Shown here: in pieces, positions 1 through 21,105 of the stretch | Layout of the letters: the number at the start of each line of letters is the position of its first letter | How positions within the stretch are numbered: position 1 is the stretch's first letter | Source of the DNA: Clostridiisalibacter paucivorans DSM 22131 | GTDB taxonomy: Bacteria > Bacillota > Clostridia > Tissierellales > Clostridiisalibacteraceae | Assembly (NCBI RefSeq): GCF_000620125.1 | Contig: NZ_JHVL01000040.1 | Coordinates: 1-32,220 of the forward strand | Reading direction: 5' to 3' | DNA: 32,220 nucleotides | Program-made: the position numbers and the translations under genes | Notes under the pieces: generated by a model | Seen by the model: only the letters and a program-made list of their open reading frames with translations | What the model was told of the DNA's origin: nothing | Database searches by the model: none

Positions 1-96
1 AAAGAATTATCCTTCGCTAATTATTCTATAAGTATATTTTAGCCTTAGGATATCTCTTTGTAAAAGTGTAATAAGAAATAAAATAAATTAATATGC

Positions 97-123
97 TTAG
101 AACACTTTTAAGAGTGGTTCTAA
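97..123 (+). promoter_or_regulatory. hairpin in the leader upstream of pduC
   Basis: Arms TTAGAACACT and AGTGGTTCTAA can pair with one bulged G around a short loop. There is no T-run after it, so it does not look like an intrinsic terminator. It lies 26 bases before the pduC start and could be an mRNA processing or stabilising hairpin if pduC is co-transcribed with genes upstream of the window. I saw no convincing promoter in bases 1-149. Confidence 0.35.
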
Positions 124-149
124 ACATATTATACGAGGAGGGAAATATC

Positions 150-1817: not shown

Positions 1818-1845
1818 AGATAAAAGCTCGAGAGGAGGTAAAATA

Positions 1846-2505: not shown

Positions 2506-2523
2506 TATGTGGAGGTGAAGATA

Positions 2524-3048
2524 ATGAATAATGAAAAAATGATAGAGGAAATTGTAAAAGAAGTAATGATGTCAATGGGTGGAAATATAGAAGAGAAAGT
2601 AGAATCTAAGTCTGATAGCAAGAATCTAAATAGTGATATAAATCCAAATAGAGATTATCCATTGGCTAAAAAAAGACCAGAGCTAGTTAAAACACCTACA
2701 GATAAAAAGTTAGACGATATAACATTGGGCGGAGTGTTAGAAGGAAAAATAAATGCTAATGATGTGAGGATAGCACCAGAGACTTTGGAGATTCAAGCAC
2801 AAGTTGCTGAAGGAGTAGGCAGAGATGCCTTTGCTAAAAATTTGAGAAGAGCAGCAGAGCTTATAGCAGTACCAGATGATAGGATATTAGCTATATACAA
2901 TGCCCTTAGACCTAATCGTTCTACTAAATCAGAGCTTTTAGAGATAGCTGATGAATTGAAAAATGAATACGGTGCAGTAATAAATAGTGATTTTGTAAAA
3001 GAAGCGGCAGAAGTGTATGAGAAAAGGGGCATGCTTATAAAGGAATAG
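2524..3048 (+). CDS. pduE: B12-dependent propanediol/glycerol dehydratase, small subunit
   Basis: This is the small (gamma) subunit of the diol dehydratase, 174 residues. The conserved core starts at DYPLAKKRPELVKTPTDKKL and continues with LRRAAELIAVPDDRILAIYNALRP, which matches the family. An N-terminal amphipathic segment (MNNEKMIEEIVKEVMMSMGG) followed by a charged linker looks like a second encapsulation peptide and closely resembles that on PduD. The start at 2524 follows GGAGGTGAAG; the ATG at 2509 overlaps that ribosome binding site and is unlikely. The gap to pduD is 18 bases and pduG follows after 30 bases, so the subunits are probably co-translated from one message. Confidence 0.96.
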   Translation: MNNEKMIEEIVKEVMMSMGGNIEEKVESKSDSKNLNSDINPNRDYPLAKKRPELVKTPTDKKLDDITLGGVLEGKINANDVRIAPETLEIQAQVAEGVGRDAFAKNLRRAAELIAVPDDRILAIYNALRPNRSTKSELLEIADELKNEYGAVINSDFVKEAAEVYEKRGMLIKE

Positions 3049-3078
3049 TTAGCTGATAGTATCTGGGAGGTTTTTGAT

Positions 3079-4905: not shown

Positions 4906-5371
4906 TAAACCTACTATAAATATATATTATTCAAATAGTATAAAAGACGATTCTTCATATACTCCATTAATATGGGGAATAGAAGAAGAGGGACTTCCCT
5001 ATCAGTGTGCTTCTAAGGATTTAAATAATGCAATAGAATTGGCATATAATGCAGCAGAGAGTTCTAGATTAAGTGTTGGAATAGGCATAGATAATACTGG
5101 GGATGTGGTATTACATTATCAAAAATTAGATAAGGACAAGCCCTTATTTAAGATTAATATAGATGAAGGATCTGATTATCTAAGAAAATTAGGAGCCAAT
5201 GGCGCTAGATTAATAAAAGGAATACCCTTTAAATCCTTTGAGGATGAAGATATTGAAGAAAAATTTGAGAATTCATTGGATACAGAAAAGGATAATGTGA
5301 AACAAGAAAATATAGATATAAAAGATATTGTAACGGAAGTGATAAAGAAACTATACGGTGAGGGGGTGTAA
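4898..5371 (+). CDS. pduH: diol dehydratase reactivase, small subunit, with extended tail
   Basis: This is the small subunit of the dehydratase reactivase, partner of PduG. The first ~112 residues form the expected core: TINIYYSN, PLIWGIEEEGLPYQ, AAESSRLSVGIGID and LRKLGANGARLIKGIPFK. The family is usually about 115-125 residues, but this one has 157. The extra part is an acidic Asp/Glu/Lys linker followed by an amphipathic C-terminal helix, IDIKDIVTEVIKKLYGEG, which looks like the encapsulation peptides on PduD, PduE and PduP but sits at the opposite end. The start overlaps the pduG stop. The targeting role of the tail is inference. Confidence 0.93.
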   Translation: MNNKPTINIYYSNSIKDDSSYTPLIWGIEEEGLPYQCASKDLNNAIELAYNAAESSRLSVGIGIDNTGDVVLHYQKLDKDKPLFKINIDEGSDYLRKLGANGARLIKGIPFKSFEDEDIEEKFENSLDTEKDNVKQENIDIKDIVTEVIKKLYGEGV

Positions 5372-5374
5372 TAT

Positions 5375-5956
5375 TTGTATAAATTTGCACTGGGTATGAT
5401 AGAAACAGTTGGCTTAGCAGCAGGAATAGAGGCTGCCGATACTGCAGTTAAATCTGCAAATATTAAGCTCTTGGGATATGAGTTGACAAGAGGTGGTGGT
5501 CTTGTAACAGTAAAGATTGCAGGAGATGTGGGAGCAGTAAAGGCCGCAGTTGAAGCGGGCAGCATTGCTGCTGAAAAAGTTAATAAAGTATGGAGCAAGC
5601 TTGTTATACCTAGACCCCATGATGAAATACAAGGATTGATTAAAAGTATGGAAACTGTTGGTTTATGTAATGATGAGACAGAAAAAAAAGAAAAGAAGTC
5701 AGAAAAAGAAGATAAAGAAATTGAAGAAGAACACAAAGAAGTTGAAACTATTAACATAAAAGAGGTTGAGACATCAGAAAATCAACAGAAAAAAGAGAAA
5801 ATAGAACAGGAACCTTTAGTAGAAGAAGATTTAAATGAAGAAAATAATAAAAAAAAAGAAGATATCTGTAATCTCTGTGGGGATCCGAAATGCCCTAGAA
5901 AAAAGGGAGAATCCAGATCTCTTTGCATACACAACAAAAATAAAAGGAGGAATTAA
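5375..5956 (+). CDS. pduK: BMC shell protein with charged linker and Cys-rich tail (PduK type)
   Basis: This 193-residue shell protein has an N-terminal BMC domain (residues ~1-90: [46 protein letters not shown]), then about 75 residues of Glu/Lys-rich, low-complexity linker. The C-terminus carries four Cys in the pattern CX2CX4CX10C within a Pro/Lys/Arg-rich segment. PduK proteins have this BMC-plus-Cys-tail design, and a metal or Fe-S site has been proposed for the tail. The start is TTG at 5375, because GAGGGGG lies just upstream and translation from it gives [13 protein letters not shown]; no better ATG precedes the BMC domain. It follows pduH by 3 bases. Confidence 0.9.
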
Positions 5957-5958
5957 TA

Positions 5959-6240
5959 ATGGGTGAAGCATTAGGAATGATAGAGACAAAAGGATTGGTA
6001 GGAGCAATAGAGGCAGCAGATGCAATGACAAAATCAGCAAATGTTACATTAATAGGATATGAAAAGATAGGCTCAGGATTAGTTACAGTAATGGTAAGGG
6101 GAGATGTGGGAGCAGTAAAGGCATCTACAGATGCAGGAGCTTCTGCAGCAGAAAGAGTTGGAGAATTGGTATCTGTACATGTGATTCCAAGACCACATAT
6201 GGACACAGAAAGAATTTTACCAAAGGTTGATAAAGAATAG
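5959..6240 (+). CDS. pduJ: BMC hexamer shell protein (PduA/PduJ type)
   Basis: This 93-residue single-BMC-domain protein would form the hexameric tiles of the microcompartment shell. The whole protein is the domain: [66 protein letters not shown]. PduA and PduJ are near-identical paralogues, so the letter J is assigned from gene order (after pduK, before pduL) and is not certain. AAAGGAGG lies a few bases before the ATG. It is the only plain PduA/J-type hexamer gene in the window, so either it does both jobs or another copy lies upstream of the window. Confidence 0.93.
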
Positions 6241-6275
6241 TAATGATTGGATTATAAGTATAGGGAGAGAGTTCT

Positions 6276-6917
6276 ATGACACAGATTGATAGGGCACTAA
6301 TTGAAAAAATAACAGAAGAAGTAAAGAGACAGATACAGAAATATGAAACAGGTATCCCTGTGGGTGTATCCAATAGACATATACATCTTAGTCAGCAGGA
6401 TTTATATAGGTTGTTTGGAGATGGGTATCAGCTAACTAAATATAAAGATTTAAGTCAGCCTGGACAATTTGCAGCTAAAGAGACAGTAACTATAATAGGG
6501 CCCAAGGGTAGCTTTGAAAGGGTTAGAATATTGGGCCCTGTAAGAGAAGATACCCAAATAGAAATATCTGTATCTGATGGATTCAAACTAGGAATAATTC
6601 CCATAGTTAAAGAGTCTGGAGATATTGATGGTACACCAGGAGTAATTATAGAAGGGCCTAAAGGAAAGGTTCAAAAAGACCAAGGAGTAATAGCGGCACT
6701 TAGACATATTCATATGCCTGTAGATTATGCCAGAGAACATGGCTTTAATAATGGAGATATGGTGACTGTATTGACAGAGGGAATAAGAAAGACTGCATTT
6801 TACAATGTATTGATAAGGGTTTCAGATAAATACAATCTGGAAATGCATATAGATATGGATGAAGCAAATTCTTCAGGGCTCAAGAACGGTGACAGGGTAA
6901 AGATAGTGAAAAAATAA
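6276..6917 (+). CDS. pduL: phosphate propanoyltransferase
   Basis: PduL converts propanoyl-CoA and phosphate into propanoyl-phosphate, recycling CoA inside the shell and leading to ATP via a kinase. The 213 residues match the family. Conserved features are VGVSNRHIHLSQ (His35, His37), RHIHM (His144, His146) and EMHIDMDEAN (His191), the metal-site histidine motifs of the PduL fold, plus LGPVR and GTPGV. Residues 1-22 (MTQIDRALIEKITEEVKRQI) form an amphipathic helix and look like the N-terminal encapsulation peptide known in PduL. The start has GGGAGAGAG upstream. No propionate kinase gene is in the window. Confidence 0.95.
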   Translation: MTQIDRALIEKITEEVKRQIQKYETGIPVGVSNRHIHLSQQDLYRLFGDGYQLTKYKDLSQPGQFAAKETVTIIGPKGSFERVRILGPVREDTQIEISVSDGFKLGIIPIVKESGDIDGTPGVIIEGPKGKVQKDQGVIAALRHIHMPVDYAREHGFNNGDMVTVLTEGIRKTAFYNVLIRVSDKYNLEMHIDMDEANSSGLKNGDRVKIVKK

Positions 6918-6930
6918 AGGGAGTATTTAT

Positions 6931-7761
6931 ATGAATCTTTCAAATGTAAATGAATACATTGAAAAATTTAATAAACTGATAATGAACAAAGAGAGTAAAT
7001 TTGAAGAGGGTAATCTAAAGGTAGGAATAGATTTGGGAACAGCTAATATAGTATTGGCAGTGGTAGATGAGGCAGGAAACCCCATAGCAGGAGCATCTAG
7101 AGAAGCAAAGGTAGTAAAGGATGGACTAGTAGTAGATTACGTGAAGGCCATAGATATAGTCAGGGAATTGAAGGCAGAGGTAGAAGATATTTTGGGAGAA
7201 GATATAAAAGAGGCAGCAGTAGCCATTCCCCCAGGAACCTTGAAAGGCAATACAAAGGCTATAGCCAATGTAGTGGAATCTGTAGGTATAGAAGTTATAA
7301 ATGTAGTAGACGAACCCACAGCAGCAGCATCAGTATTAAAGATTACCGATGGAGCAGTTGTAGATGTAGGGGGAGGTACTACAGGTATAAGTGTATTGAA
7401 GGATGGAAAAGTAATATATGTAGCTGATGAACCCACAGGTGGGACCCATATGACTTTGGTGTTAGCTGGTAGTTATAGGCTTTCCTTTGATGAGGCAGAA
7501 AATATAAAAAGAGAGGCTAAAAGGGAGAAGGAAGTATTTACAGTAGTAAAACCAGTGGTGGAAAAAATGGCTGATATAGTAAAGAGGCATCTATCCAATT
7601 ACCCTGTGGACAAGATATATATAGTTGGAGGGGCATGTAGCTTCAGTGAATTTGAAGATGTGTTTACAAAGTATATAGGGACAGAAAGTGTAAAACCATC
7701 GATGCCCCTTTTAGTTACTCCCCTAGGTATAGCATTAAATTGTAATAGGGATGGTGAATAG
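6931..7761 (+). CDS. eutJ: EutJ-type actin/Hsp70-fold protein
   Basis: This 276-residue protein has the actin/Hsp70 ATPase fold and matches the EutJ family of ethanolamine microcompartment loci: LKVGIDLGTANIVLAVVDEAG, AAVAIPPGT, VVDEPTAAASVLKI, AVVDVGGGTTGISV, ADEPTGGTHMTLVLAGSYRLS, KPVVEKMADIVKRH and IYIVGGACSF. EutJ is proposed to be a chaperone or reactivation-like factor, but its role is not firmly established. Here it sits in a Pdu-type operon between pduL and a flavoprotein, where enteric loci have pduM. About 30 polar residues precede the first phosphate loop. GGGAG precedes the ATG, and its 3' end overlaps the next gene by 11 bases. The assignment to the family is firm; the client is unknown. 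Confidence 0.9.
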   Translation: MNLSNVNEYIEKFNKLIMNKESKFEEGNLKVGIDLGTANIVLAVVDEAGNPIAGASREAKVVKDGLVVDYVKAIDIVRELKAEVEDILGEDIKEAAVAIPPGTLKGNTKAIANVVESVGIEVINVVDEPTAAASVLKITDGAVVDVGGGTTGISVLKDGKVIYVADEPTGGTHMTLVLAGSYRLSFDEAENIKREAKREKEVFTVVKPVVEKMADIVKRHLSNYPVDKIYIVGGACSFSEFEDVFTKYIGTESVKPSMPLLVTPLGIALNCNRDGE

Positions 7762-8503
7762 ATTGGGTTTTGATGAAATGATAGAGATTATTGTAAAAGA
7801 AGTAGTAAAAAGAATAAATAGTGAAATACAGCCTCCAAAGAAAGAAGCATTGTTGATATTTACAGGTGCAATATCAGGATGTAATGATGCTTTAAATGCA
7901 TTGAAAAAAATGGGTAAAGAGGGTTATAACTTTAAAGTAGTTTTATCTGAGAGTGCCCAGCAGATATTGGACCAAGATAAGATAAAAGAAGAGCTGGATG
8001 TGACAGATATATATGTGGATGGAACTCCAGAGAATGTAGACTATTTGAAAAGGGATATAGATAAAATAGTGATTCCTACATTGACCAGAAATTCTGCTGC
8101 AAAAATAGCAATGGGTATATCGGATACATTGGCCACATATCTAGTATCTTGGGGTATAATGTCAAATATCCCCATAGTGGCATCTATAGATGGATGTAAT
8201 CCTCAAAAGAGTAAATCATCAGCTTATAGGGATATGCTTAATAACAATATAGAGATATTGAAGGAGTATGGAATAGCATTAAAAGAGGCTAAGGATATCT
8301 ATAAATGTGAAAAAAATATTGTCCAATGTGAATATAAAAAAGAAAAAGAAGTCTTCTTAGAGAAGAAATTGATTACTAGAGAAGATGTGATAAATGCCAA
8401 AAATAATAATCAGCAAATATTAGTTTCTAAAAACACTATAATTACCCAACTTGCAACAGATATAGCTCGACAAATAGGAGTTACTATAAAAACCACAAAT
8501 TAA
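7751..8503 (+). CDS. flavoprotein-like microcompartment protein with PduM-like tail
   Basis: This 250-residue protein is not a canonical Pdu enzyme. Residues ~7-22 (FDEMIEIIVKEVVKRI) resemble an encapsulation peptide. Residues ~30-180 look like a flavoprotein domain of the CoaC/HFCD type: ALLIFTGAISGCNDALNALKKM, FKVVLSESA, DKIVIPTLTRNSAAKIAMGISDTLAT and IPIVASIDGCNP. The last ~40 residues, KLITREDVINA...ILVSKNTIITQLATDIARQIGVTI, resemble, from memory, a C-terminal segment of PduM and other shell-associated proteins. FMN binding and a cargo role are inferred. The ATG at 7751 overlaps eutJ; a TTG at 7763 is an alternative start and would still leave the helix intact. Confidence 0.75.
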   Translation: MVNRLGFDEMIEIIVKEVVKRINSEIQPPKKEALLIFTGAISGCNDALNALKKMGKEGYNFKVVLSESAQQILDQDKIKEELDVTDIYVDGTPENVDYLKRDIDKIVIPTLTRNSAAKIAMGISDTLATYLVSWGIMSNIPIVASIDGCNPQKSKSSAYRDMLNNNIEILKEYGIALKEAKDIYKCEKNIVQCEYKKEKEVFLEKKLITREDVINAKNNNQQILVSKNTIITQLATDIARQIGVTIKTTN

Positions 8504-8516
8504 AGGTGGGTTTCAT

Positions 8517-8786
8517 ATGTATATAGGAAAAATAATAGGAGTGGTTGTATCTACCACTAAAGATCAGGGACTTGTAGGAAAAAAACTTTTAATAGTACAA
8601 CCAATAGATACTAAAAACAATCCCATAGGAAATTGTGAAGTAGCCATAGATTCCGTAGGGGCAGGTGCTGGAGAAGTTGTACTGGTAGCTACTGGGAGTT
8701 CTGCAAGGCAGATTTTCAATGATGAAAAATCTCCAATAGATAGATCAATAGTGGCTATAATTGATAACATTGAAGTTACTCAATAA
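8517..8786 (+). CDS. pduN: microcompartment vertex protein (EutN/CcmL family)
   Basis: This 89-residue protein would form the pentamers that close the vertices of the shell. It matches the EutN/CcmL family from end to end: MYIGKIIGVVVSTTKDQGLVGKKLLIVQPID, VAIDSVGAGAGEVVLVATGSSAR and DRSIVAIIDNIEV. It starts 13 bases after the flavoprotein gene, with AAAGGTGGG upstream. pduO begins 13 bases after its stop. Losing vertices leaves shells open in other systems, so this single copy should be essential for closed compartments. Confidence 0.95.
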   Translation: MYIGKIIGVVVSTTKDQGLVGKKLLIVQPIDTKNNPIGNCEVAIDSVGAGAGEVVLVATGSSARQIFNDEKSPIDRSIVAIIDNIEVTQ

Positions 8787-8799
8787 AGGAAGTGATATT

Positions 8800-9786
8800 T
8801 TGGGAAGGATATATACCAAAACTGGTGACAGAGGAGACACTGGTTTGTTTGGAGGTAGTAGAGTTAATAAGGACAACCTAAAAGTTGAGTGCTATGGAAC
8901 AGTAGATGAAGCCAATTCTATGATTGGAGTAGCGTATTCGCTAGTAAAGAATAGAGAAATAAAAGATGAATTGAGAGAAATACAGAAGAGATTATTTATT
9001 GTGGGAGCTGAAATTGCCAGTGATGCCAATGGTGTAGAAAAACTTACCGATAAAATATCTCAGAGAGATGTAGAGTTATTGGAAGAGACTATAGATATAC
9101 ACACAGCAGAGGTTGAACCGCAAGATGGTTTTGTAATACCTGGGGGAGCCGTTTCAGCATCGACGCTGCACATGGCTAGGACCGTAGTTAGGAGAGCAGA
9201 GAGGCTCGTAGTTTCCCTGGATAATCAGGTTGAAATCAATAGCAATATAAAAAAATATTTAAATAGATTATCTGATGTATTATTCATAATGGCAAGGGTA
9301 GAGGAAAAATATAACTTTATTCAAGAAGTAAAATCAAGGGTACTAGATAGACTTAAAGATAATACAATAGAATGGAATTTGAGCTTGAAACTTAGCAAAA
9401 AGATGGCAGAGGCAGCAGAGAGAAAGGCAATAGAAATAGGAGTGCCTGTGGTATTTACTGTGATGGATGCAGGAGGAAATATAGTATTAGTTCATAGGAT
9501 GGAAGACTCTTTGTTGGCAAGCCTAGATATATCTATGAATAAGGCATATACATCGTTGTCTCTAAAAATGTCCACTGATAAAGTTGCCAATATAGTAAAA
9601 GAAGACAGTAATTTATATGGCATACAGTGGAGTAATAAAGGCAGAATAGTTCCCTTTGGTGGAGGTTATCCATTGAAGCACAAAGGAAAAATTATTGGGG
9701 GAATAGGCGTAAGTGGCGGCACAGTTGAACAGGATGTTAAGGTAGCATTAAATGCATTAAAGGTATTTGAGATTGAAAGGAGTTAA
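8800..9786 (+). CDS. pduO: ATP:cob(I)alamin adenosyltransferase with GlcG/HbpS-like domain
   Basis: PduO makes adenosylcobalamin, the cofactor of PduCDE. The N-terminal domain (residues ~1-185) is the PduO-type adenosyltransferase: RIYTKTGDRGDTGLFGGSRV, CYGTVDEANSMIG, FVIPGGAVSASTLHMARTVVRRAER and NRLSDVLFIMAR. The C-terminal domain (~195-328) is of the GlcG/HbpS (DUF336) type: MAEAAERKAIEIGVPVVFTVMDAGGN, MNKAYTS and GGGYPLKHKGKIIGGIGVSGGTVEQD. The TTG at 8800 is chosen because AGGAAGTG lies about 6 bases upstream and the protein then begins at the conserved GRIYTKTGD. An earlier in-frame TTG at 8761 would overlap pduN. Confidence 0.94.
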   Translation: MGRIYTKTGDRGDTGLFGGSRVNKDNLKVECYGTVDEANSMIGVAYSLVKNREIKDELREIQKRLFIVGAEIASDANGVEKLTDKISQRDVELLEETIDIHTAEVEPQDGFVIPGGAVSASTLHMARTVVRRAERLVVSLDNQVEINSNIKKYLNRLSDVLFIMARVEEKYNFIQEVKSRVLDRLKDNTIEWNLSLKLSKKMAEAAERKAIEIGVPVVFTVMDAGGNIVLVHRMEDSLLASLDISMNKAYTSLSLKMSTDKVANIVKEDSNLYGIQWSNKGRIVPFGGGYPLKHKGKIIGGIGVSGGTVEQDVKVALNALKVFEIERS

Positions 9787-9791
9787 TAATT

Positions 9792-11198
9792 ATGGCTATA
9801 GATACAATGGATATAGAAAAAGTAGTAAAGGCAGTTTTGGAAAAAATGGATACCGAAGGTCATTCTATAGAAGGACAAAGTCCCCAAAATGGTATATTTT
9901 CAGATATGGATATGGCCATAGAAGCAGCATGGAAAGCTCAAAAGAGATTTTTTAAAGAATATAATTTGGAAGATAGAAGTAGAATTATAAAGGCTATGAG
10001 GGAAGATCTCATGGAAAATGTAGAGCTCTTGGCAAGATTGGGAGTAGATGACAGTGGAATGGGAAGATATGAGGATAAACTAGTAAAAAACAAACTTACA
10101 ATAGAAAAAACTCCTGGAGTGGAAGATTTAAAGGCAGAGGCATATACAGGGGATTCAGGTATTGCATTGATAGAGCTTTCTCCATATGGAGTAATAGGAG
10201 CAATAACACCTTCAACTAATCCATCAGAGACAGTAATATGTAATAGTATAGGGATGATAGCAGCAGGAAATTCAGTAGTATTTAGTCCCCATCCTGGTGC
10301 TAAAAATATATCAATGAAAACCATAGAAATAATAAACAATGCTATCAAAAGAGCAGGAGGACCAGATAATCTAGTAGTTACAGTGGACAATCCAAGTATT
10401 GAGAATGCCCAAAAGATGATGACCCATGAAAAGGTGAAGATGATTGTGGCCACAGGAGGTCCAGGAGTAGTTAAATCAGCAATGTCTAAGGGGAAAAAGG
10501 CCATAGGAGCTGGGGCAGGTAACCCACCAGCATTGGTAGATGAAACTGCTGATATAGAAAAGGCTGCAAGAGATATAATAGCAGGATGTAGTTTTGATAA
10601 TAATTTACCCTGTATTGCAGAAAAAGAGGTAATAGTAGTAGATAGTGTGGCAGATTATCTAATATTTTCAATGAACAAAGAAAATGTATATCATCTAGAG
10701 AATAGGGCAGATATAGATAGATTGGTAAAGATAGTATTCGATGAACAAGGAAGACTAAATAGAAAATATGTTGGAAAAGACGCCAAGTTTATATTAAATT
10801 CAGCAGGGATAAAATGTGAAGAAGATGTTAGGGCGGTAATAATGGAGGTAGAAAAAGATCATCCTTTTGTATTAGAAGAATTAATGATGCCAATATTGCC
10901 CATAGTTAGAGTAAAAGACGTTGAAGAAGGGATTAACTTAGCAGTAGCAGTGGAGCAAGGCAATAGACATACTGCTATCATGCATTCTAAAAATATAGAT
11001 AACTTAACAAGATTTGCTAGAGAAGTAGAAACAACCATATTTGTAAAAAATGCACCTTCATTTGCAGGGCTTGGATATGGTGGAGAAGGGTATGCCACAT
11101 TTACTATAGCAGGTCCTACAGGAGAAGGATTAACTTCAGCTAGAAGTTTTGCGAGAAAGAGAAAATGCTCATTGGTAGGAGGATTTTCTATTAAATAA
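9792..11198 (+). CDS. pduP: CoA-acylating propionaldehyde dehydrogenase
   Basis: PduP oxidises propionaldehyde (or 3-hydroxypropionaldehyde) with NAD and CoA to the acyl-CoA, which PduL then uses. The 468 residues match the family. Features seen: an N-terminal amphipathic helix MDIEKVVKAVLEKMDTEG resembling the known PduP encapsulation peptide; the Rossmann region GVIGAITPSTNPSETVICNSIGMIAAGN; VATGGPGVV; GAGAGNPPALVDETADIEKAA; and the catalytic Cys274 in NNLPCIAEKE. AAAGGAG lies 8 bases before the ATG. It is the last gene before a strong terminator, so the main operon probably ends here. Confidence 0.96.
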   Translation: MAIDTMDIEKVVKAVLEKMDTEGHSIEGQSPQNGIFSDMDMAIEAAWKAQKRFFKEYNLEDRSRIIKAMREDLMENVELLARLGVDDSGMGRYEDKLVKNKLTIEKTPGVEDLKAEAYTGDSGIALIELSPYGVIGAITPSTNPSETVICNSIGMIAAGNSVVFSPHPGAKNISMKTIEIINNAIKRAGGPDNLVVTVDNPSIENAQKMMTHEKVKMIVATGGPGVVKSAMSKGKKAIGAGAGNPPALVDETADIEKAARDIIAGCSFDNNLPCIAEKEVIVVDSVADYLIFSMNKENVYHLENRADIDRLVKIVFDEQGRLNRKYVGKDAKFILNSAGIKCEEDVRAVIMEVEKDHPFVLEELMMPILPIVRVKDVEEGINLAVAVEQGNRHTAIMHSKNIDNLTRFAREVETTIFVKNAPSFAGLGYGGEGYATFTIAGPTGEGLTSARSFARKRKCSLVGGFSIK

Positions 11199-12826: not shown

Positions 12827-13863
12827 GTGAATAATGGGAAATCTAATTTAAGTTTAGAGAATATAAAGATACAAGATGTAATTGATGTGGAATTTTTACA
12901 AAAGATACAAGATGATTTTGCAGCAGCAGTGGGGGTAGCAAGTATTACCGTGGATTTAGAAGGAAACCATGTAACTAACCCTAGTAACTTTACAGAATTC
13001 TGTGATATAGTACATTCAACTAAAATAGGCCATAGTCGATGTGCAGCATGTGATAAAAAAGGTGGAGAAGAAGCTGTAAATACAGGCAGACCAGTTATAC
13101 ATGAGTGTCATGCAGGACTGATTGATTTTGCTGCACCAATAATACTTGAAGGCAAGTTAATCGGAACAATCCTTGGGGGGCAAGTATTGGCAGATTTTCA
13201 AGGAAAAAAAAATATAGAGAAATAGCCTTGGAGATTGGGGTAGATGCATCAAGCCTCATAGATGCTTCAAAGAGAGTTAAGAGGGTATCCAAGGATCAAA
13301 TTCGTGCTGCGGCTGAAGTATTATATTCTTTAGCCAATAATATGGCAAAGGATTGGTATAATCGATATAAATTAAAGGATGCTGCAGATACATTAAATGA
13401 GAGTTTAAGTCAAATTGCAGCTACTATGGAAGAGTTGGCAGCATCGGCACAAGAGTTGACTAATACTCAAGATAGTCTAAATAAAGAGATTGATAATGTC
13501 AATGATATGTCTGAACAAATTAGCCAAGTGCTAGAGTTTATCAAAAAAATAGCCGATGAAACTCAAATGCTAGGTTTAAATGCTGCTATTGAAGCCGCTA
13601 GAGCTGGAAATGCAGGGCTAGGGTTTGGAGTCGTTGCAGAAGAAATAAGAAATTTATCTAGTCAGTCTAAAGAAACTGTTGGTGAGATAAGGTCTTTTAT
13701 TGAGAATATTCAATCTTCAGTAAAAAATACTGTGAAAATGGGAGATAATACTGCATTAGTTACAGAACAACAGGCAGCAGCCGTACAGCAAGTAACTGCA
13801 AGCATAGAGGAGATAACAGCTCTATCGGAAAATTTAAATGAACTTGCTAAAGGGGATAATTAA
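12827..13863 (+). pseudogene. PocR-domain soluble chemoreceptor-like protein, split by a frameshift
   Basis: Two adjacent frames encode one protein of about 345 residues. The first part (from GTG 12827, with AAAAGGAGAGGG upstream) is a PocR sensor domain: VEFLQKIQDDFAAAVGVASITVD, CDIVHSTKIGHSRCAACDKKGG, HECHAGLIDFAAPI and LGGQVLADF. It runs into stop codon TAG at 13223-13225. The second part, in the -1 frame, continues directly with [16 protein letters not shown], the expected end of the PocR domain, and then a short methyl-accepting signalling domain with the hairpin tip [20 protein letters not shown]. The change falls at a run of nine A (13204-13212); ten A would restore one reading frame. 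No membrane helix or HAMP domain is present. PocR domains are linked to propanediol sensing in enteric bacteria, which fits the neighbouring pdu genes. It may be a mutation, an assembly error or expressed by slippage. Confidence 0.8.
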
Positions 13864-13892: not shown

Positions 13893-13921
13893 TTGACTTA
13901 TATTTTCTAAGCTGTTATAAT
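13893..13921 (+). promoter_or_regulatory. sigma-A-type promoter of the attenuation leader
   Basis: TTGACT at 13893-13898 and TATAAT at 13916-13921 are separated by exactly 17 bases. A start of transcription near 13928 would put the leader peptide's ribosome binding site at the very start of the message. A small inverted repeat (TTTTTGAA/TTCAAAAA, 13870-13887) just upstream may end the preceding transcript. Confidence 0.8.
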
Positions 13922-13952
13922 ACCTATAAATCATTTCGAAGGAGAATAAAGA

Positions 13953-14009
13953 ATGAATACTTTACTGAATATATATACACAATTCTTTTTTAATAGCCAA
14001 TTTAGATAG
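13953..14009 (+). CDS. 18-residue leader peptide
   Basis: A small reading frame encodes MNTLLNIYTQFFFNSQFR. GAAGGAGAA lies just upstream with good spacing, and it sits about 25 bases downstream of the predicted transcription start. Four of 18 codons are Phe, three of them consecutive (13983-13991), and the stop codon overlaps the first pairing segment of the downstream RNA structure. This is the expected layout of an attenuation leader in which ribosome position decides folding. The peptide itself need have no function. It does not match a leader peptide that I can name. Confidence 0.65.
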   Translation: MNTLLNIYTQFFFNSQFR

Positions 14010-14199
14010 GGTTTGTACCTATGCCTAATTAGACATAGATATAAACCCTAAAAGATTAACAAAATTGTTTTTTAGGGTTTATATCTATGTTGGCGTATAT
14101 TTAATAAATATGTGTATCTATATTTGAGTAATATTTTTTATATATTAATATATATGTGAATTGAAGCCACATAGATCAAAATGGTCTGTGTGGCTTTTT
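14008..14199 (+). promoter_or_regulatory. attenuator with alternative stems in front of the ABC importer
   Basis: Segment 1 (14008-14023, AGGGTTTGTACCTATG) can pair with segment 2 (14034-14049, CATAGATATAAACCCT) with one G-U and one mismatch. Segment 2, extended to 14033-14053, can instead pair perfectly over 21 bp with segment 3 (14070-14090). Segment 3, extended as ATCTATGTTGGC (14083-14094), can pair with GCCACATAGAT (14166-14176), which is the 5' arm of the terminator. So 1:2 frees 3 to block the terminator, while 2:3 allows it. A ribosome at the leader stop would cover segment 1 and favour termination; one stalled at the Phe codons would not. The direction of control is inferred. No T-box or known riboswitch core was recognised. 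Confidence 0.7.
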
Positions 14200-14204
14200 A
14201 TTTT
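14164..14204 (+). terminator. regulated intrinsic terminator
   Basis: AAGCCACATAGAT pairs with GTCTGTGTGGCTT (with two G-U pairs) around a short loop and is followed by TTTTTATTTT. It lies 31 bases before the ATG of the permease gene, too close to serve a gene upstream, and shares its 5' arm with an alternative pairing partner. It is therefore most likely the off-switch of the leader. Confidence 0.8.
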
Positions 14205-14234: not shown

Positions 14235-15137
14235 ATGGATGCAGTAATAGGTGTTATGATTCAAAGCTTAATATTAGGAGTCATGGTATTGGGAGTATAT
14301 ATAAGCTATAGTATTTTAGATTTTCCTGATATGTCGGCAGATGGAAGTTTTGCATTGGGAGGTGCCATTGTAGCGGTAGTGTTGGGATATGGTATATCTC
14401 CAATAGTCGCAACTATATTGGCAATATTAGCAGGGCTCTTGGCAGGACTTTTGACAGGGATACTCCATGTGAAGGCCAGAATATCTAATCTTTTGTCGGG
14501 AATTTTGGTTATGGGTATTTTATATTCACTAAACTTAAGGATTATGGGAAAGGCCAATATACCTTTGTTTAATGAGAGGCATGTCTTTACAATTATAGAT
14601 AACCCATTGATATTTTCCATAGTAATGATAGTTTTAGTAAAATTAAGTTTAGATACATTTTTAAATACAGGACTGGGATATACATTGAAGGCTGTTGGAG
14701 ATAATGCCCAGATGGTAAAGTCTTTAGGTATAGAAATAGGTAAGGTAAAGATATTTGGATTGATGATTTCCAATGGATTGATAAGTTTATCAGGGGCAAT
14801 TATGGCACAATATCAAGGATTTGCAGATGCATCCATGGGGATAGGGACATTGGTATTGGGTATTGCATCTATCATAGTAGGGCAAGTAATATTACAAGGG
14901 ATAAATAAGATAAAGGAAAGTAGTAAGATTTTATTGGGTACTATTGTATATCAAATTACTATATATTTAGCCATGAATATGGGATTAGGTGCTACAGATT
15001 TAAAGATGATTACATCTGTAGTAATAATACTATTTTTGGCATCTGGACAATTTAGACAGAAGATATCATTAAAAAGACGATCTGTAAGGGGGTGGTTAAA
15101 TGTTAAAAGTGGAAAGTCTATCAAAGAGATTTCATAA
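14235..15137 (+). CDS. ABC importer permease (TrpY-like)
   Basis: This 300-residue membrane protein belongs to the branched-chain/sugar-type permease superfamily found beside ABC_sub_bind binding proteins. About eight or nine membrane helices are visible. Typical segments are ILDFPDMSADGSFALGGAIVAV, ARISNLLSGILVMGILYSLNLRIMG, GYTLKAVGDNAQMVKSLGI (the cytoplasmic loop that contacts the ATPase) and ASIIVGQVILQG. It is the first gene after the attenuator, with GAAGGGAG upstream. The last 38 bases overlap the ATPase gene. The nearest named systems are the TrpXYZ tryptophan importers, but the substrate cannot be read from the sequence; the Phe-rich leader peptide makes an aromatic amino acid worth testing. 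Confidence 0.85.
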   Translation: MDAVIGVMIQSLILGVMVLGVYISYSILDFPDMSADGSFALGGAIVAVVLGYGISPIVATILAILAGLLAGLLTGILHVKARISNLLSGILVMGILYSLNLRIMGKANIPLFNERHVFTIIDNPLIFSIVMIVLVKLSLDTFLNTGLGYTLKAVGDNAQMVKSLGIEIGKVKIFGLMISNGLISLSGAIMAQYQGFADASMGIGTLVLGIASIIVGQVILQGINKIKESSKILLGTIVYQITIYLAMNMGLGATDLKMITSVVIILFLASGQFRQKISLKRRSVRGWLNVKSGKSIKEIS

Positions 15138-15855
15138 TCCCTATGGTAAAGATAATATAATATTTTCCAATCTGTCATTAGAGATTAATAAAGGAGATTT
15201 TGTAAGTATTATAGGGAGCAATGGAGCTGGGAAGTCCACATTACTCAACATAATATCGGGGATCATAGAGCCTTCTTTAGGTAGAATAAGCTTAAAAGAT
15301 GAAATACTTACTGATATGCCCCAGCATAAGAGAACTCAAATATTGAGTAGGGTATTTCAGTCACCAGATATGGGCGCCTGTCCTTCGATGACAGTAAGGG
15401 AAAATCTGTCCATGGCATTAAATAAAGGAAGATTATTAAATTTGAGGAGATGTCTTAGACATAGTGATGAATATTTGGAAGGGATATTAGATGGTGTACC
15501 ATTAAACTTAAAAAGATATATGGATGTAGAAGTTAGATATCTTTCTGGAGGACAAAAACAGGCATTATCATTGGTTATGGCAACTATATCATCACCTAAT
15601 ATATTGCTTTTAGATGAACATACAGCTGCCTTGGATCCTAAGACCTCAAATGAAATTATGGATTTGACTGAGAGGATAGTCAATGAAAGAAATATAACAA
15701 CACTCATGGTTACCCATAATTTAAAACATGCATTAGAATATGGAAACAGGCTAATAATGCTTCATAATGGAGAGATTATATTAGATGCCTATGAAGAAGA
15801 AAAGAGAAAAATAACTATAGAAGATATATTGTCAAAATTTGAATATGCAGTATAA
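15100..15855 (+). CDS. ABC importer ATPase (TrpZ-like)
   Basis: This 251-residue ATPase drives the importer formed with the upstream permease and downstream binding protein. It has the Walker A motif GSNGAGKST, the Q-loop RVFQSPDMG, the signature LSGGQKQALSL, the Walker B NILLLDEHTAALDP (His replaces the more usual Pro after the catalytic Glu, as is common in this subfamily) and the H-loop VTHNL. The ATG has GGGGGTGG about 7 bases upstream and lies inside the permease gene, so translation is probably coupled. It has no membrane segment. Confidence 0.93.
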   Translation: MLKVESLSKRFHNPYGKDNIIFSNLSLEINKGDFVSIIGSNGAGKSTLLNIISGIIEPSLGRISLKDEILTDMPQHKRTQILSRVFQSPDMGACPSMTVRENLSMALNKGRLLNLRRCLRHSDEYLEGILDGVPLNLKRYMDVEVRYLSGGQKQALSLVMATISSPNILLLDEHTAALDPKTSNEIMDLTERIVNERNITTLMVTHNLKHALEYGNRLIMLHNGEIILDAYEEEKRKITIEDILSKFEYAV

Positions 15856-15876
15856 ATTAAAAGGGAGATGATAAAG

Positions 15877-16857
15877 ATGATAAGAAATATGATTAAAATA
15901 ATTATAGTGACAGTCTTAGGAATATTGGTATTGGCAGGGTGTGGGAAGACTGATTCAGCTCAGAAGAAGATAGAGATAGGAATAAGTCAAATAGTAGAAT
16001 ATAGTGCATTGGATGAAAATAGGGAAGGATTTCTAAAGGCCCTAGAGGATAATGGTTACAAGAATGGAGATAATATAGAAATCGAATATCAGAATGCCCA
16101 GGGAGATTTGGCTACAGCCCAGACTATAGCTAAAAATTTTGTATCGAAGGATAAAGAGTTAATATTTGCCATAGCTACTGGATCAGTACAAGGGTCATAT
16201 AATGCTACTAAAGATATACCTATTTTATTTAGTTCTGTAACAGACCCTGTGGCAGCAGGGGTAGTTGAATCTTTAGAAATGCCAAATACTAATGTTTCTG
16301 GTACATCAGATTATATACCTGTGGAAAAACAGATGGATTTAATTAAAAAATTTGTTCCCAATGCTACTAACATAGGGGTCATATATAATACCAGTGAAGT
16401 AAATTCTCAGGTACAGGTGTCTAAATTGAAGGAAAGTGCAGATGAATATGGGTATAAAATTGTGGAGGTTGGAGTGACTAGTACCAATGAAGTAAATCAG
16501 GCTATATCAAGTTTAACCAAAGATATAGATGTATTATTTGTACCTACTGACCAATTGGTGGTATCGTCAATGCCTGTAATAGTTCAGCAGACTATGAAAA
16601 AAAATATTCCTATTATAGCATCTGAAAAGGGCTCAGTAGAATTGGGAGCATTGGTTACCCAAGGAATAAATTATTATGATTTGGGATATAAGACAGGTGA
16701 AATGGCTGTAAAGGTATTAAATGGAGAAGATATTTCTAAAATGCCTGTAACAATGATGGATGAGATGGAGATAATAGTAAATGAAGATTCCTTAAAGGCC
16801 CTAGGCATTGATAAACCACAGGATGAAAATATAATTTATATCAATACAAAAGAATAG
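15877..16857 (+). CDS. substrate-binding lipoprotein of the ABC importer (ABC_sub_bind, TrpX-like)
   Basis: This is a 326-residue extracytoplasmic binding protein. A hydrophobic signal sequence ends in the lipobox LAGC with Cys22 as the lipidation site. The mature part has the ABC_sub_bind pattern: IEIGISQIVEYSALDENREGFLKAL, TAQTIAKNFVSKDKELIFAIAT, DIPILFSSVTDPVAAGVV, VSGTSDYIPVEKQMDLIKKFVPNA, IGVIYNTSEVNS and VPTDQLVVSS. Known relatives bind tryptophan or other aromatic compounds, but the family is diverse. The ATG at 15877 is favoured because GGGAG ends 9 bases before it; the ATG at 15868 abuts that site. No clear terminator follows. Confidence 0.88.
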   Translation: MIRNMIKIIIVTVLGILVLAGCGKTDSAQKKIEIGISQIVEYSALDENREGFLKALEDNGYKNGDNIEIEYQNAQGDLATAQTIAKNFVSKDKELIFAIATGSVQGSYNATKDIPILFSSVTDPVAAGVVESLEMPNTNVSGTSDYIPVEKQMDLIKKFVPNATNIGVIYNTSEVNSQVQVSKLKESADEYGYKIVEVGVTSTNEVNQAISSLTKDIDVLFVPTDQLVVSSMPVIVQQTMKKNIPIIASEKGSVELGALVTQGINYYDLGYKTGEMAVKVLNGEDISKMPVTMMDEMEIIVNEDSLKALGIDKPQDENIIYINTKE

Positions 16858-17549: not shown

Positions 17550-18176
17550 ATGCCAACAGATACATTTTTCAATTTATCAGAAGAAAAGAGAAATAAAATT
17601 CTAAATGTGGCCATAGATGAATTTGCAGAGTATTTTTATCATAATGCCAGTATAAGTAGAATAGTAAAAGAGGCCAATATAGCAAAGGGGAGTTTTTATC
17701 AGTACTTTTCAGACAAGAAAGATCTATTTAAATATATTATGGATATATCAGCACAGAAAAAATTAAAATATTTGGCTAAAAGTATAGATGAACAAAGAGA
17801 AATGGATTTTTTTCAAAGGGTTAGAGAAATCTATATTATGGGGTTAAGATTTGCAAAAGATCATCCAAAACTTCAAAAGATAGGTATAAATTTAGTTCTT
17901 AGTCATGATGAAGGATTTAAAAGAGACATTTTAGGGGAAAATATCCCTAAAAGTGATGAGTTATTTGAAAAGTTGTTAAATCAAGGTATAGAAAGTGGAG
18001 ATATAAACCCAGATATAGATTTGAAAGTGGTAGCCCACATGATAACTACCATGAGTATATCCATCAGTGAATATTTTCTAATGAAAATGGGAGATAAAGA
18101 TATTATGGACATTATGAATTTAGTAGATAATATGCTAGATGTGTTTAAAAATGGAATTAAAAATGAAAGGAAGTGA
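17550..18176 (+). CDS. TetR/AcrR family regulator of the ABC-2 exporter
   Basis: This is a 208-residue repressor. The N-terminal helix-turn-helix (residues ~8-55) is typical: EEKRNKILNVAIDEFAEY, ASISRIVKEANIAKGSFYQYFSDKKDLFKYI. The remaining helical domain (KYLAKSIDEQREMDFFQRVREIYIMGLRFAKDHP...) is the ligand and dimer part and gives no clue to the inducer. The ATG has AAGGAG 9 bases upstream. It is 6 bases from the exporter ATPase gene, and three palindromes lie at its promoter, so it most likely represses itself and the exporter until a toxic compound binds. Confidence 0.88.
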   Translation: MPTDTFFNLSEEKRNKILNVAIDEFAEYFYHNASISRIVKEANIAKGSFYQYFSDKKDLFKYIMDISAQKKLKYLAKSIDEQREMDFFQRVREIYIMGLRFAKDHPKLQKIGINLVLSHDEGFKRDILGENIPKSDELFEKLLNQGIESGDINPDIDLKVVAHMITTMSISISEYFLMKMGDKDIMDIMNLVDNMLDVFKNGIKNERK

Positions 18177-18182
18177 AACTAA

Positions 18183-19037
18183 ATGTTAGATGTAAAAAAT
18201 CTTTACCATTCCTATACAAAAGACAATAGATATGCTGTAGAAGATGTAAATTTTGAAATAAAAGCAGGTGAGATATTTGGTTTTTTAGGACCCAGCGGAG
18301 CGGGTAAATCTACTACCCAAAATATATTGATAGGTTTATTGCCATTGCAAAAAGGAAAGGTGGAATTATGGGGAAAGGATATAAAGAAGTCAAAGGGAGA
18401 ATTTTTCAATCAGATAGGGGTATCTTTTGAACAACCTAATGTATATAAAAAGCTTAGTGGCTTAGAAAATCTGAATTTTCATAAAAATATGTTTGATGTA
18501 CCCACTGAAGATCCCATACAGTTATTGAAAATGGTAGGATTAGAGGATGCGGCCAATAAAAAGGCAGGAGGATATTCAAAGGGTATGTTACAACGATTAG
18601 TATTTGTGAGGTCTATGATTAATAATCCTAAAATCTGGTTTTTAGATGAACCAACATCTGGACTTGACCCCAATACTGCCAATAAAATTAAAAATATAAT
18701 AAAAGAAAAAAACAATATGGGCACCACCATATTTTTGACTACCCATAATATGCATATAGCAGAGGAGCTTTGTGACAGAATAGCCCTTATAAATGAAGGC
18801 AAGATAGAGCTTGTAAATTCTCCTAGAAATTTGAAGCTTAAATATGGAGAAAAACTTATAAAGGTAGAATACAAAGAAGATGGAAATATGAAGACAGAGA
18901 GACTTTCTATTGTAGATGAAAAGGATAAGAAGAGATTAAATGGTCTTATAAATGAAGGTAAAATAGAGACTATGCATTCCCAAGAGGCAACATTAGAAGA
19001 GATATTTATAAAGGTCACAGGAAGGGAGTTGAGTTAA
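18183..19037 (+). CDS. ABC-2 exporter ATPase
   Basis: This 284-residue ATPase belongs to the drug or lipid exporter group (DrrA/CcmA-like). Motifs: Walker A GPSGAGKST, Q-loop SFEQPNVYKKLSGLENL, signature GGYSKGMLQRL, Walker B IWFLDEPTSGLDP and H-loop TTHNMHIAEEL. The C-terminal ~70 residues (KLIKVEYKEDGNMKTERLSI...EIFIKVTGREL) are the accessory domain common in this group. It follows tetR by 6 bases and precedes two permeases, so a heterodimeric pump under TetR control is likely. The substrate is unknown. Confidence 0.92.
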   Translation: MLDVKNLYHSYTKDNRYAVEDVNFEIKAGEIFGFLGPSGAGKSTTQNILIGLLPLQKGKVELWGKDIKKSKGEFFNQIGVSFEQPNVYKKLSGLENLNFHKNMFDVPTEDPIQLLKMVGLEDAANKKAGGYSKGMLQRLVFVRSMINNPKIWFLDEPTSGLDPNTANKIKNIIKEKNNMGTTIFLTTHNMHIAEELCDRIALINEGKIELVNSPRNLKLKYGEKLIKVEYKEDGNMKTERLSIVDEKDKKRLNGLINEGKIETMHSQEATLEEIFIKVTGRELS

Positions 19038-19039
19038 AA

Positions 19040-20095
19040 ATGATTCAGAGATTTTTAGCTCTAACCAAGAAAGATATTATAAATGGATATAGGAATTATT
19101 TTTTTGTTGTGACCATATTTATAGCAGTATTCTTCGGGCTTGTTATTAATTTTATAGTGCCTGAAGATACCAGTATTAAACCTGATTTATATATTTATAA
19201 TAGTTATGATGGTGAATATGTAGGACTTATGGATGGAATAATTGAAGGCTCTCAACAAAAACATAGTAATATGTATATGTTGAAATCTAAGAGAGAAGTA
19301 GTAGAAAATATGAAGGATAATTTCAATAGTATAGGTTTAGTGATTCTTGAGAAATCAGGATTACCAAATATGGAATTTATAATGCAGGGTTATGAAAATG
19401 AAAAGATTGTAAATACCTTAATCTTATCCATGGAAGATGATATTAAAAAGAAAATTTATGGAGATATAAATATAGATACCATAGTGTTGAAACAGGATAT
19501 GGAGTTAGCTGATATACCCTTTAATAAGAGTATATTGCCCATGTTTTTAGTTATGGAGCCAGTATTATTGGGATTTATAATGATTCTAGCCCTTGTATTT
19601 ATGGAAAAAGATGAGGGGACTATAAAGTCATATATGGTATCTCCCGGTGGAGTATCCGAATATTTAGCAGCTAAAATTGTATTTATGATAATTTTGGGGT
19701 GGATATCGGCTGTTATAAGTACATTAATGGTAGTGGGAGTGAATGCAGACTATATAAAATTATTGTCAATAGTAACGGTAGGAGGGATATTTGCATCGGG
19801 ATTGGGGCTTATAGTGTCTAGTTTTTTTGATAATCTGTCTAAATCTATGGTTTGGATAATGATAGTTAGTATACTACTATCATTGCCATTTATATCATAT
19901 TTTGTACCCAGTTTTGCACCTAATTATATAAGACTGATACCAACATATTCATTGCTATTTGCCATGAAGGAAGCAGTATTTCCCACAGGAAACACAGCTA
20001 TAATATATAATACATTAATTACATTTTGTATACTGGCAGTTATAAATTATATATTGGCATTATTAGTATATAGATATAATCTATCTAAGATGTAA
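19040..20095 (+). CDS. ABC-2 exporter permease, first subunit
   Basis: This 351-residue membrane protein has the ABC-2 layout: one N-terminal helix (YFFVVTIFIAVFFGLVINFI), an extracytoplasmic part of roughly 130 residues, then five or six C-terminal helices starting at SILPMFLVMEPVLLGFIMIL. The cytoplasmic motif MEKDEGTIKSYMVSPGGVSEYLAAK is typical of ABC-2 permeases. It starts 2 bases after the ATPase stop, with GGAAGGGAG some 15 bases upstream. It probably pairs with the next permease. Confidence 0.87.
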   Translation: MIQRFLALTKKDIINGYRNYFFVVTIFIAVFFGLVINFIVPEDTSIKPDLYIYNSYDGEYVGLMDGIIEGSQQKHSNMYMLKSKREVVENMKDNFNSIGLVILEKSGLPNMEFIMQGYENEKIVNTLILSMEDDIKKKIYGDINIDTIVLKQDMELADIPFNKSILPMFLVMEPVLLGFIMILALVFMEKDEGTIKSYMVSPGGVSEYLAAKIVFMIILGWISAVISTLMVVGVNADYIKLLSIVTVGGIFASGLGLIVSSFFDNLSKSMVWIMIVSILLSLPFISYFVPSFAPNYIRLIPTYSLLFAMKEAVFPTGNTAIIYNTLITFCILAVINYILALLVYRYNLSKM

Positions 20096-20106
20096 AGGAG
20101 GAAAAT

Positions 20107-21105
20107 ATGAAGAGAATATTAGCCATATTCAAGAGAGATATAATTAGTAGTTTAAGAGAATTTATGCTCATATATATGATGGTGGCTCCAATACTTTTGG
20201 CTATAGGTCTTAGATTTTTCATACCAAGTGTTGGTTCTGCCTCTATTCAATTTGCAGTGGATAATAGTGTAGATAAAGATATAATAGATATATTCAATAG
20301 ATATGGAAATGTGGAAAGATATGATTCGGTCGAAGATGTTAAAAAAAGAGTCAATAGTATAGATGATATAGCAGGGGTAATTGTAGATGAAAAAAATAAT
20401 TTTAAGTTGATATTAGAGGGCAATGAGTCCCATGATACTGAAGAAATACCTAAAAAGATAATTAGAAGCATAAAATATGAAGATGGACTCAATACTGGGC
20501 ATTCAATAACAGATATTGGGATTAAAAACTCTCCTATAGCCACAATAGGAACAACATCCCTTATAATTATGGCCATAGTTATGGGAGGTATAGTAATAGG
20601 GCTCAACATAATAGAAGAAAAGGAATCGGGAACAATAAGGTCATTGATTGTATCTCCAATGAGCAAAATTGAATTTATATTGGGAAAGAGTGTAATAGGT
20701 GTCATTTTGCCCATAATACAGGTTTATATAATTTTATGGATACTGGGCATGGCCAATGTAAATATATATATGGTGTTGATTTTGACATTGATTAGTATGT
20801 TGCTGACCATAACAATGGGATTTTTAATCGGAGTTATAAGTGGAAATCAGATAGCAGGAATTGCAAATTTAAAATTATTGTTTCTGATCGTATCTTTATC
20901 TATAATAGGAGCAATAATGCTTCCACAGAGCAAACAATTTTTACTGTATTGGGCACCTCCATATTGGTCATTTATAGGATTTAGGGATATCTTACTTCAT
21001 AATATTACATGGTATCAATTATTTATATATTGTCTATGGATATTGGGATTAAGTACTATAATATTTATGTTGGTCAGAAAGAAAATTAATAACAGATTAT
21101 CTTAG
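20107..21105 (+). CDS. ABC-2 exporter permease, second subunit
   Basis: This 332-residue permease has the same design as its neighbour: an N-terminal helix (FMLIYMMVAPILLAIGLRFF), an external region of ~120 residues, and C-terminal helices starting at IATIGTTSLIIMAIVMGGIVIGL. The loop IIEEKESGTIRSLIVSPMSKIEFILGK is the ABC-2 signature region. AAAGGAGG precedes the ATG. It is the last gene of the operon, ended by a strong terminator. Two different permeases with one ATPase suggest a heterodimeric channel. Confidence 0.88.
   Translation: MKRILAIFKRDIISSLREFMLIYMMVAPILLAIGLRFFIPSVGSASIQFAVDNSVDKDIIDIFNRYGNVERYDSVEDVKKRVNSIDDIAGVIVDEKNNFKLILEGNESHDTEEIPKKIIRSIKYEDGLNTGHSITDIGIKNSPIATIGTTSLIIMAIVMGGIVIGLNIIEEKESGTIRSLIVSPMSKIEFILGKSVIGVILPIIQVYIILWILGMANVNIYMVLILTLISMLLTITMGFLIGVISGNQIAGIANLKLLFLIVSLSIIGAIMLPQSKQFLLYWAPPYWSFIGFRDILLHNITWYQLFIYCLWILGLSTIIFMLVRKKINNRLS

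Follow-up and report, generated by a model that had tools for sequence, protein, structure and literature searches.

The region at 13893–14204 of the window (here, the whole 32,220-nucleotide stretch of Clostridiisalibacter paucivorans DSM 22131 DNA that was analysed) is very probably a ribosome-mediated transcription attenuator acting on Phe (aromatic) codons, and one branch of a modular family in Firmicutes. It precedes an operon for an ABC importer; its anatomy, its conservation, the pair counts and the match between control codons and genes are read directly in the sequences. On the best reading, the wider family spans Clostridia together with one or more other families of Firmicutes; its members would share an RNA core and differ in their control codons, which suit the gene downstream.

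Leader anatomy and genomic surroundings

The leader and the operon that it precedes contain the following features:

13893–13921, + strand: promoter TTGACT-17-TATAAT with TG before the −10, 11 of 12 consensus bases (sequence)
13939–13945, + strand: ribosome binding site AAGGAGA of the leader frame, preceding the ATG at 13953 (sequence)
13953–14009, + strand: leader peptide frame MNTLLNIYTQFFFNSQFR*, 18 codons (translation; open frame kept in relatives)
13983–13991, + strand: control codons Phe11-Phe12-Phe13; a fourth Phe codon lies at 14001–14003
13993–14008, + strand: segment 0, the last leader codons, which mimics the terminator 5' arm in pairing with the 3' half of segment 3
14008–14023, + strand: segment 1, which pairs with segment 2
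14033–14053, + strand: segment 2, partner of segment 1 or segment 3 (pair counts)
14070–14095, + strand: segment 3; the terminator 5' arm and segments 0 and 2 are alternative partners of its 3' half (14082–14097)
14131–14141, + strand: degenerate box, helix P1 partner of the leader start-codon region (covariation in relatives)
14163–14204, + strand: intrinsic terminator (14163–14197) with a T-rich tail to 14204 (terminator prediction and pair counts)
14166–14176, + strand: segment 4, the terminator 5' arm and half of antiterminator 3:4
14235–15137, + strand: ABC permease, BPD_transp_2 family (domain search)
15100–15855, + strand: ABC ATPase (domain search)
15868–16857, + strand: substrate-binding lipoprotein, ABC_sub_bind, TrpX-like (domain search)

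An earlier sequence-only reading of this DNA had named a consensus promoter, an 18-codon frame with a good ribosome binding site and four Phe codons, segments 1, 2 and 3 with the terminator arm and their pairings, and a short gap between terminator and permease; all of these are found, the permease ATG lying about 30 bases past the T-rich tail. The leader frame also enters two further helices that are absent from that reading, P1 and segment 0:3. Core pairs in the window are 14009–14020 with 14037–14048 (1:2), 14033–14047 with 14076–14090 (2:3) and 14083–14095 with 14165–14176 (3:4); 9 of 13 P1 pairs remain there, as counted by eye from the alignment. The 279-nt leader has a predicted fold of −86.7 kcal/mol against a mean of −46.0 (sd 4.05) in 200 shuffles, a z of −10. 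Promoter-like boxes are seen by eye before several relatives' leaders too, and by eye 12 of 13 importer leaders have a second tandem terminator, the window being without one. At gathering cut-offs no Rfam family, those of the enterobacterial-type attenuators included, matches anywhere in the window, and the Rfam model search finds no T-box riboswitch (RF00230) in the window leader.

The importer is predicted to carry Phe (or Phe/Tyr); its binding protein scores 302 bits against the TrpX equivalog NF041285, below the cut-off of 390, and so falls outside TrpXYZ as defined by that model. The genome itself has one clear attenuator copy (the next separate site has E = 0.8) and 20 T-boxes over the cut-off, all elsewhere; a paralogue of the importer (53% identity) has no T-box within approximately 470 bases upstream. 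The stretch at 12827–13863, upstream of the leader, encodes a PocR sensory domain and, back to back with it in a different frame, the signalling domain of a methyl-accepting chemotaxis protein, as if they were one broken PocR-MCP gene. These PocR-like domains are preceded by a diol/glycerol dehydratase cluster at 93–11198 (large and medium subunits, reactivase, aldehyde dehydrogenase), and the importer operon is followed at 17550–21105 by a TetR regulator and an ABC-2 type exporter with its ATPase and two membrane components.

Conservation and alternative pairing in the importer branch

A first DNA search of 60 relatives gave a single clear further copy, which lies before the orthologous permease in a genome from another family of the same order; among the many matches listed at E 0.001–1, those of the window and of genome G008 were the only real leaders in the part inspected. 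A protein-guided scan of named genomes, limited to the best 80 of 481 loci, contains 12 permeases (L051–L062) that are 60–72% identical to that of the window and 68 at 39–52%. Model R2, built from 30 leaders, finds the leader in 12/12 of the former and 0/68 of the latter; since 11 of the 12 loci (all but L054) were in its training set, the informative results are the 0/68, among which two loci have less than 400 bases of upstream sequence (L086 and L087), and the direct reading of frames. No T-box is found in the leaders of the 12 relatives, while five T-boxes lie elsewhere in their loci.

The 13 close leaders end in FFFNSQFR, FFFNSKFR, FYYYSQFR, VVFNSQFR, FVFTSQFR, FVFSSQFR, FFFSSQFR, IIFISQFR, VFFNSQFR or FFFNSQFI. 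Codons 11–13 are FFF in six of these and in 8 of the larger set of 35, with FVF, VVF, IIF, VFF, FYY, HVF, FSF and YYY as variants in relatives; codon 13 is Phe or Tyr in 35/35. Because codons 11–13 vary in close relatives, "aromatic/Phe" is a safer description than "Phe only". The larger set is alignment A6, 35 importer-branch leaders from which identical or near-identical copies were left out; the frame is open for 16–24 codons in all 35, gaps inside it (11/35 rows) are always of three bases, and the stop codon is displaced in six leaders, earlier in three and later in three. A start codon and ribosome binding site are also seen in relatives' leaders. Conservation across homologous leaders had been proposed as a check on the attenuator, and both the small frame and the alternative pairings are kept in the 35.

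Six helices were named: P1 (leader start region with the box before the terminator), P2 (segment 0 with the 3' half of segment 3), 1:2, 2:3, 3:4 and the terminator. The proportion of paired cells is 87.8% in P1, 87.6% in P2, 92.6% in 1:2, 94.5% in 2:3, 97.1% in 3:4 and 94.2% in the terminator, compared with 15–59% in slid registers; the structures were drawn on one of the 35 sequences, a choice that gives the unslid register an advantage. Cells changed on both sides number 36 in P1 (6–15 when slid), 9 in 1:2, 6 in 2:3, 7 in 3:4 and 11 in the terminator; P2 has three, and is therefore mainly conserved rather than covarying. Counted as such cells, no helix is equalled in 500 shuffles except P2 (66/500). 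Counted as pairs with both sides changed, of which 1:2 has four, 1:2 (2/500 shuffles as high) and 2:3 (0/500) are clearly above shuffling; P1 (211/500), P2 (150/500), 3:4 (168/500) and the terminator (359/500) are not.

The antiterminator and terminator helices are mutually exclusive and both conserved across the 35 leaders. P1, P2, 1:2 and the terminator can all form at once and together close the entire leader frame; P1 and P2 are incompatible with the nested antiterminator. From these pairings a mechanism may be proposed, in which the waiting of the ribosome and the kinetics of the switch are inferred. When charged tRNA-Phe is ample, the ribosome would pass through the leader frame to the stop codon and cover segments 0 and 1, so that 2:3 pairs and termination follows; in the absence of a ribosome it is segment 2 or segment 0 that would hold segment 3, and the terminator would again form. 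A ribosome waiting at the Phe (aromatic) codons would cover segment 0 and leave segment 1 free to pair with segment 2; segment 3, once released, would pair with the terminator 5' arm, and the importer would be transcribed.

This scheme was modelled by equilibrium folding of the RNA downstream of the ribosome to the end of the terminator 5' arm, with an assumed footprint, kinetics outside the model, and a hand-set stop position for three rows (L170, L177, L182). The mean probability of 3:4 (n = 35) is 0.67 with the A site 5–8 codons before the stop, compared with 0.06 without a ribosome, 0.24 with one at the stop codon and 0.35 with one near the start; this last value makes the preference for the control codons a relative one. 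The control-codon value is at least 0.3 above that without a ribosome in 25 of 35 leaders and above that at the stop in 26, with 10 and 9 leaders, respectively, missing the margin. In the window itself the values are 0.11 (control codons), 0.00 (no ribosome) and 0.01 (stop), and the switch is barely visible at equilibrium because the 2:3 hairpin is very stable; one leader, L056, is reversed (0.05 at the control codons versus 0.55 at the stop). The logic put forward in the sequence-only reading, 1:2 with 3:4 for expression and 2:3 for termination, is thus supported by conservation and pair counts in the 35 leaders, by ribosome-position folding on average over the same leaders (weakly for the window), and by the codon–gene match described below.

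A proposed family with one core and different control codons

A search with model R1, built from 13 importer leaders only, covered 249 genomes from the order and 391 from the class at E ≤ 0.01 and gave matches in 10 and 13 of them, respectively. These represent 25 separate sites (opposite-strand duplicates excluded), 22 of which have a leader frame and the module, three of the 22 being training members; L134, L139 and L152 look like chance matches, about six of which are expected from the rough E-values. The genes that follow the new members are those of sodium:neurotransmitter (SNF) symporters, whose leaders have Tyr, Phe or Leu codons, of a BrnQ-type carrier (Tyr/Phe codons), and hisZ/hisS (His codons). 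The broader R2 matches 74/297 genomes of one clostridial order, 23/381 of the class and 4/329 of the phylum, the class and phylum counts including the genome of the window; the order-level sites are the stronger ones among the matches listed, those with E above approximately 2e-5 being left out except G411. A pattern scan of viral contigs gave one chance match (L131).

In total 137 sites were catalogued and 128 classified; eight were dropped for having no leader or no fitting gene (L134, L139, L199, L201, L202, L203, L204, L206), and L140 as its contig ends before any gene. Classes come from blastp clustering, with Pfam and NCBIfam applied to representatives only; L180 and L174 were put in the importer class by their leaders, although clustering places L180 in the binding-protein group and assigns L174 no downstream protein. 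At least HHH is present in 47/47 sites before his genes (39 hisZ/hisS-type, 1 hisD) or family-3 solute-binding proteins (7), and the seven family-3 proteins would, from these codons, carry histidine. At least two F/Y within the last nine codons are present in 63/63 sites before 39 importers, 4 TrpX-first operons, 19 BrnQ-type carriers and 1 Na+/H+ antiporter type; the 18 SNF sites have at least two F/Y in 15 and LLL in three. Outside these classes HHH is found in 0/81 sites; 78/81 have two or more F/Y codons among the last nine, and the other three have LLL. At least two F/Y also occur in 2/39 hisZ/hisS sites. These sites are not independent, many coming from close species, and the 39 importer sites represent 25 distinct peptides. 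Peptide ends differ over the family (YYYYYSHYF, HHHHHRLKGL, LLLLANLR), with runs of one codon type persisting.

One genome has two tandem Trp-like importers 3.7 kb apart, with FF and YYYYY as their respective leader codons (L146 and L156). A single phylum-level match (L294, E = 0.009) has the leader end TWQNWRR, containing Trp codons, before an ABC_sub_bind protein; it is a possible Trp-codon member of the family.

A looser version of the folding calculation was run on 88 leaders of the other gene classes; the margin is present in 44/88 relative to no ribosome and in 50/88 relative to the stop. The means for none, control and stop in this version are 0.27, 0.80 and 0.20 for BrnQ-type leaders, 0.20, 0.48 and 0.17 for SNF, 0.21, 0.48 and 0.30 for hisZ/S/D, and 0.23, 0.41 and 0.28 for family-3.

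The Rfam family RF02863, whose consensus contains helices 0:3 and 1:2, scores above its gathering cut-off of 61 in 4 of 20 loci scanned (L226, L224, L240, L227; 61.3–78.2 bits), all leaders of BrnQ-type carriers in clostridial genomes; the window itself scores 27.1 bits, below the cut-off and among chance matches at loose cut-offs. In the family of genome G1136, probably the enterococcal relatives to judge from the Rfam family, RF02863 is found at E ≤ 0.001 in 22/29 genomes, 13 of them over the cut-off, and in 0/14 control genomes. Twenty of the 31 listed matches in that family were examined, and all 20 have an aromatic-rich leader end of the YFSYFR type; the genes that follow are aroE-type in 15 and ABC_sub_bind-type in five, with L295 and L297, and likewise L290, L291 and L293 from the phylum-level search, as the Pfam basis for these types. 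A published E. faecium RNA with the same name as this Rfam family, sRNA_2410, is reported to be 195 nt long and to give two transcripts on Northern blots (PMC5593968). Judged by its sequence, Enterococcus sRNA_2410 (RF02863) belongs to this attenuator module, and would be a terminated leader. The sequence-only reading had considered the leader an unrecognised type on a TrpXYZ-like importer without a T-box; the lack of a T-box stands, while the leader proves to be a branch of a large family and not an isolated type.

Alternative explanations and comparison with known systems

A drug-sensing leader of the erm/ABC-F kind, in which an antibiotic stalls the ribosome on the peptide and the downstream gene is switched on, is very unlikely here; the short frame, the nearly invariant SQFR-stop end in the closest relatives and the hydrophobic variants of codons 11–13 (VVF/IIF/FVF) are consistent with it, and leaders of that kind are known in Firmicutes. 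However, codons track gene function, with His before his genes, Leu before some SNF symporters, and Tyr/Phe before aroE, TrpX-like, BrnQ-type and SNF genes; the SQFR-stop conservation may be due at least partly to base pairing with segment 3. The peptides of the family differ and track the gene, rather than forming a conserved arrest peptide unrelated to the amino acid of that gene. Of the two triggers named in the sequence-only reading, slow decoding of Phe codons is thus favoured by the codon–gene match over the family, while the antibiotic finds no support.

The conserved S-Q-F-R-stop C-terminus of the closest relatives could also belong to a metabolite-sensing arrest peptide (TnaC-like), with free Phe or another ligand stalling the ribosome at the stop and turning the importer off, and the antiterminator is indeed less probable with a ribosome at the stop than with one at the control codons (0.24 vs 0.67); this explanation is given slightly less weight again, as peptide ends vary over the family while single-codon runs persist, and the calculation terminates without any ribosome too. 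The least probable reading, and a very unlikely one, is that the terminator is an ordinary one, the short frame has arisen by chance or has no regulatory role, and the conservation comes from another RNA function, e.g. a small RNA; the Rfam relative is described as an sRNA (PMC5593968), but the frame-keeping gaps, the start codon and ribosome binding site in relatives, the conserved alternative helices and the codon–gene match all argue against this. Attenuation on aromatic codons remains the preferred reading.

A broader proposal is considered somewhat better than even: that a single core spread among Clostridia and into one or more further Firmicutes families, its control codons being exchanged between Phe, Tyr, His, Leu and Trp; that it contains a lock, made by the last leader codons, which mimic the arm of the terminator, and in importer leaders also by a downstream box that closes over the start codon, leaving expression possible only with the ribosome at one exact place; and that sRNA_2410 is the terminated leader of aromatic-amino-acid genes. 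The usual view of Firmicutes is that a lack of amino acids is detected at genes like these through T-boxes or proteins. If true, the proposal would allow the substrates of transporters known by family alone (ABC, SNF, BrnQ-type, Na+/H+ antiporter type) to be guessed directly from the codons, would turn a catalogued small RNA into a cis leader, and would provide a natural set of leaders that differ mainly in their control codons.

The His branch is already in print. In the available portions of these papers, His leader peptides are described in bacilli before hisZ/hisS* (Naville and Gautheret 2010, PMC2965389), and His attenuators of his operons in the B. cereus group, Peptostreptococcaceae, Lutispora and Erysipelotrichales (Ashniev et al. 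2022, PMC9413887). In the open-access literature no counterpart with Phe, Tyr, Leu or Trp codons was found, although Panina et al. 2003 may cover part of the aromatic branch; nor was anything found there on attenuation in C. difficile or on a "PCE" element, and for Enterococcus aroE/tyrosine only a review on other bacteria.

As those portions describe them, the Firmicutes His attenuators (PMC2965389, PMC9413887) resemble the present family in having a short frame with a His-codon run and a terminator and antiterminator before hisZ/hisS* and his operons; unlike it, they are His only, with no core common to several amino acids and no leader-frame helices, a comparison made by description. The T-box riboswitch of Streptococcus suis trpXYZ (PMC9382623) senses amino-acid tRNA charging before a related importer, as the window leader would, but the latter is without a T-box. 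RF02863 shares helices 0:3 and 1:2 with this module, and is filed as a small RNA. In the enterobacterial phe, trp and his attenuators, runs of control codons are present and the position of the ribosome chooses between hairpins. The present leaders have such runs as well, and ribosome position would likewise decide between their helices; they differ in that the antiterminator is formed by segment 3 and the terminator 5' arm, with 0:3 and 2:3 holding segment 3 off.
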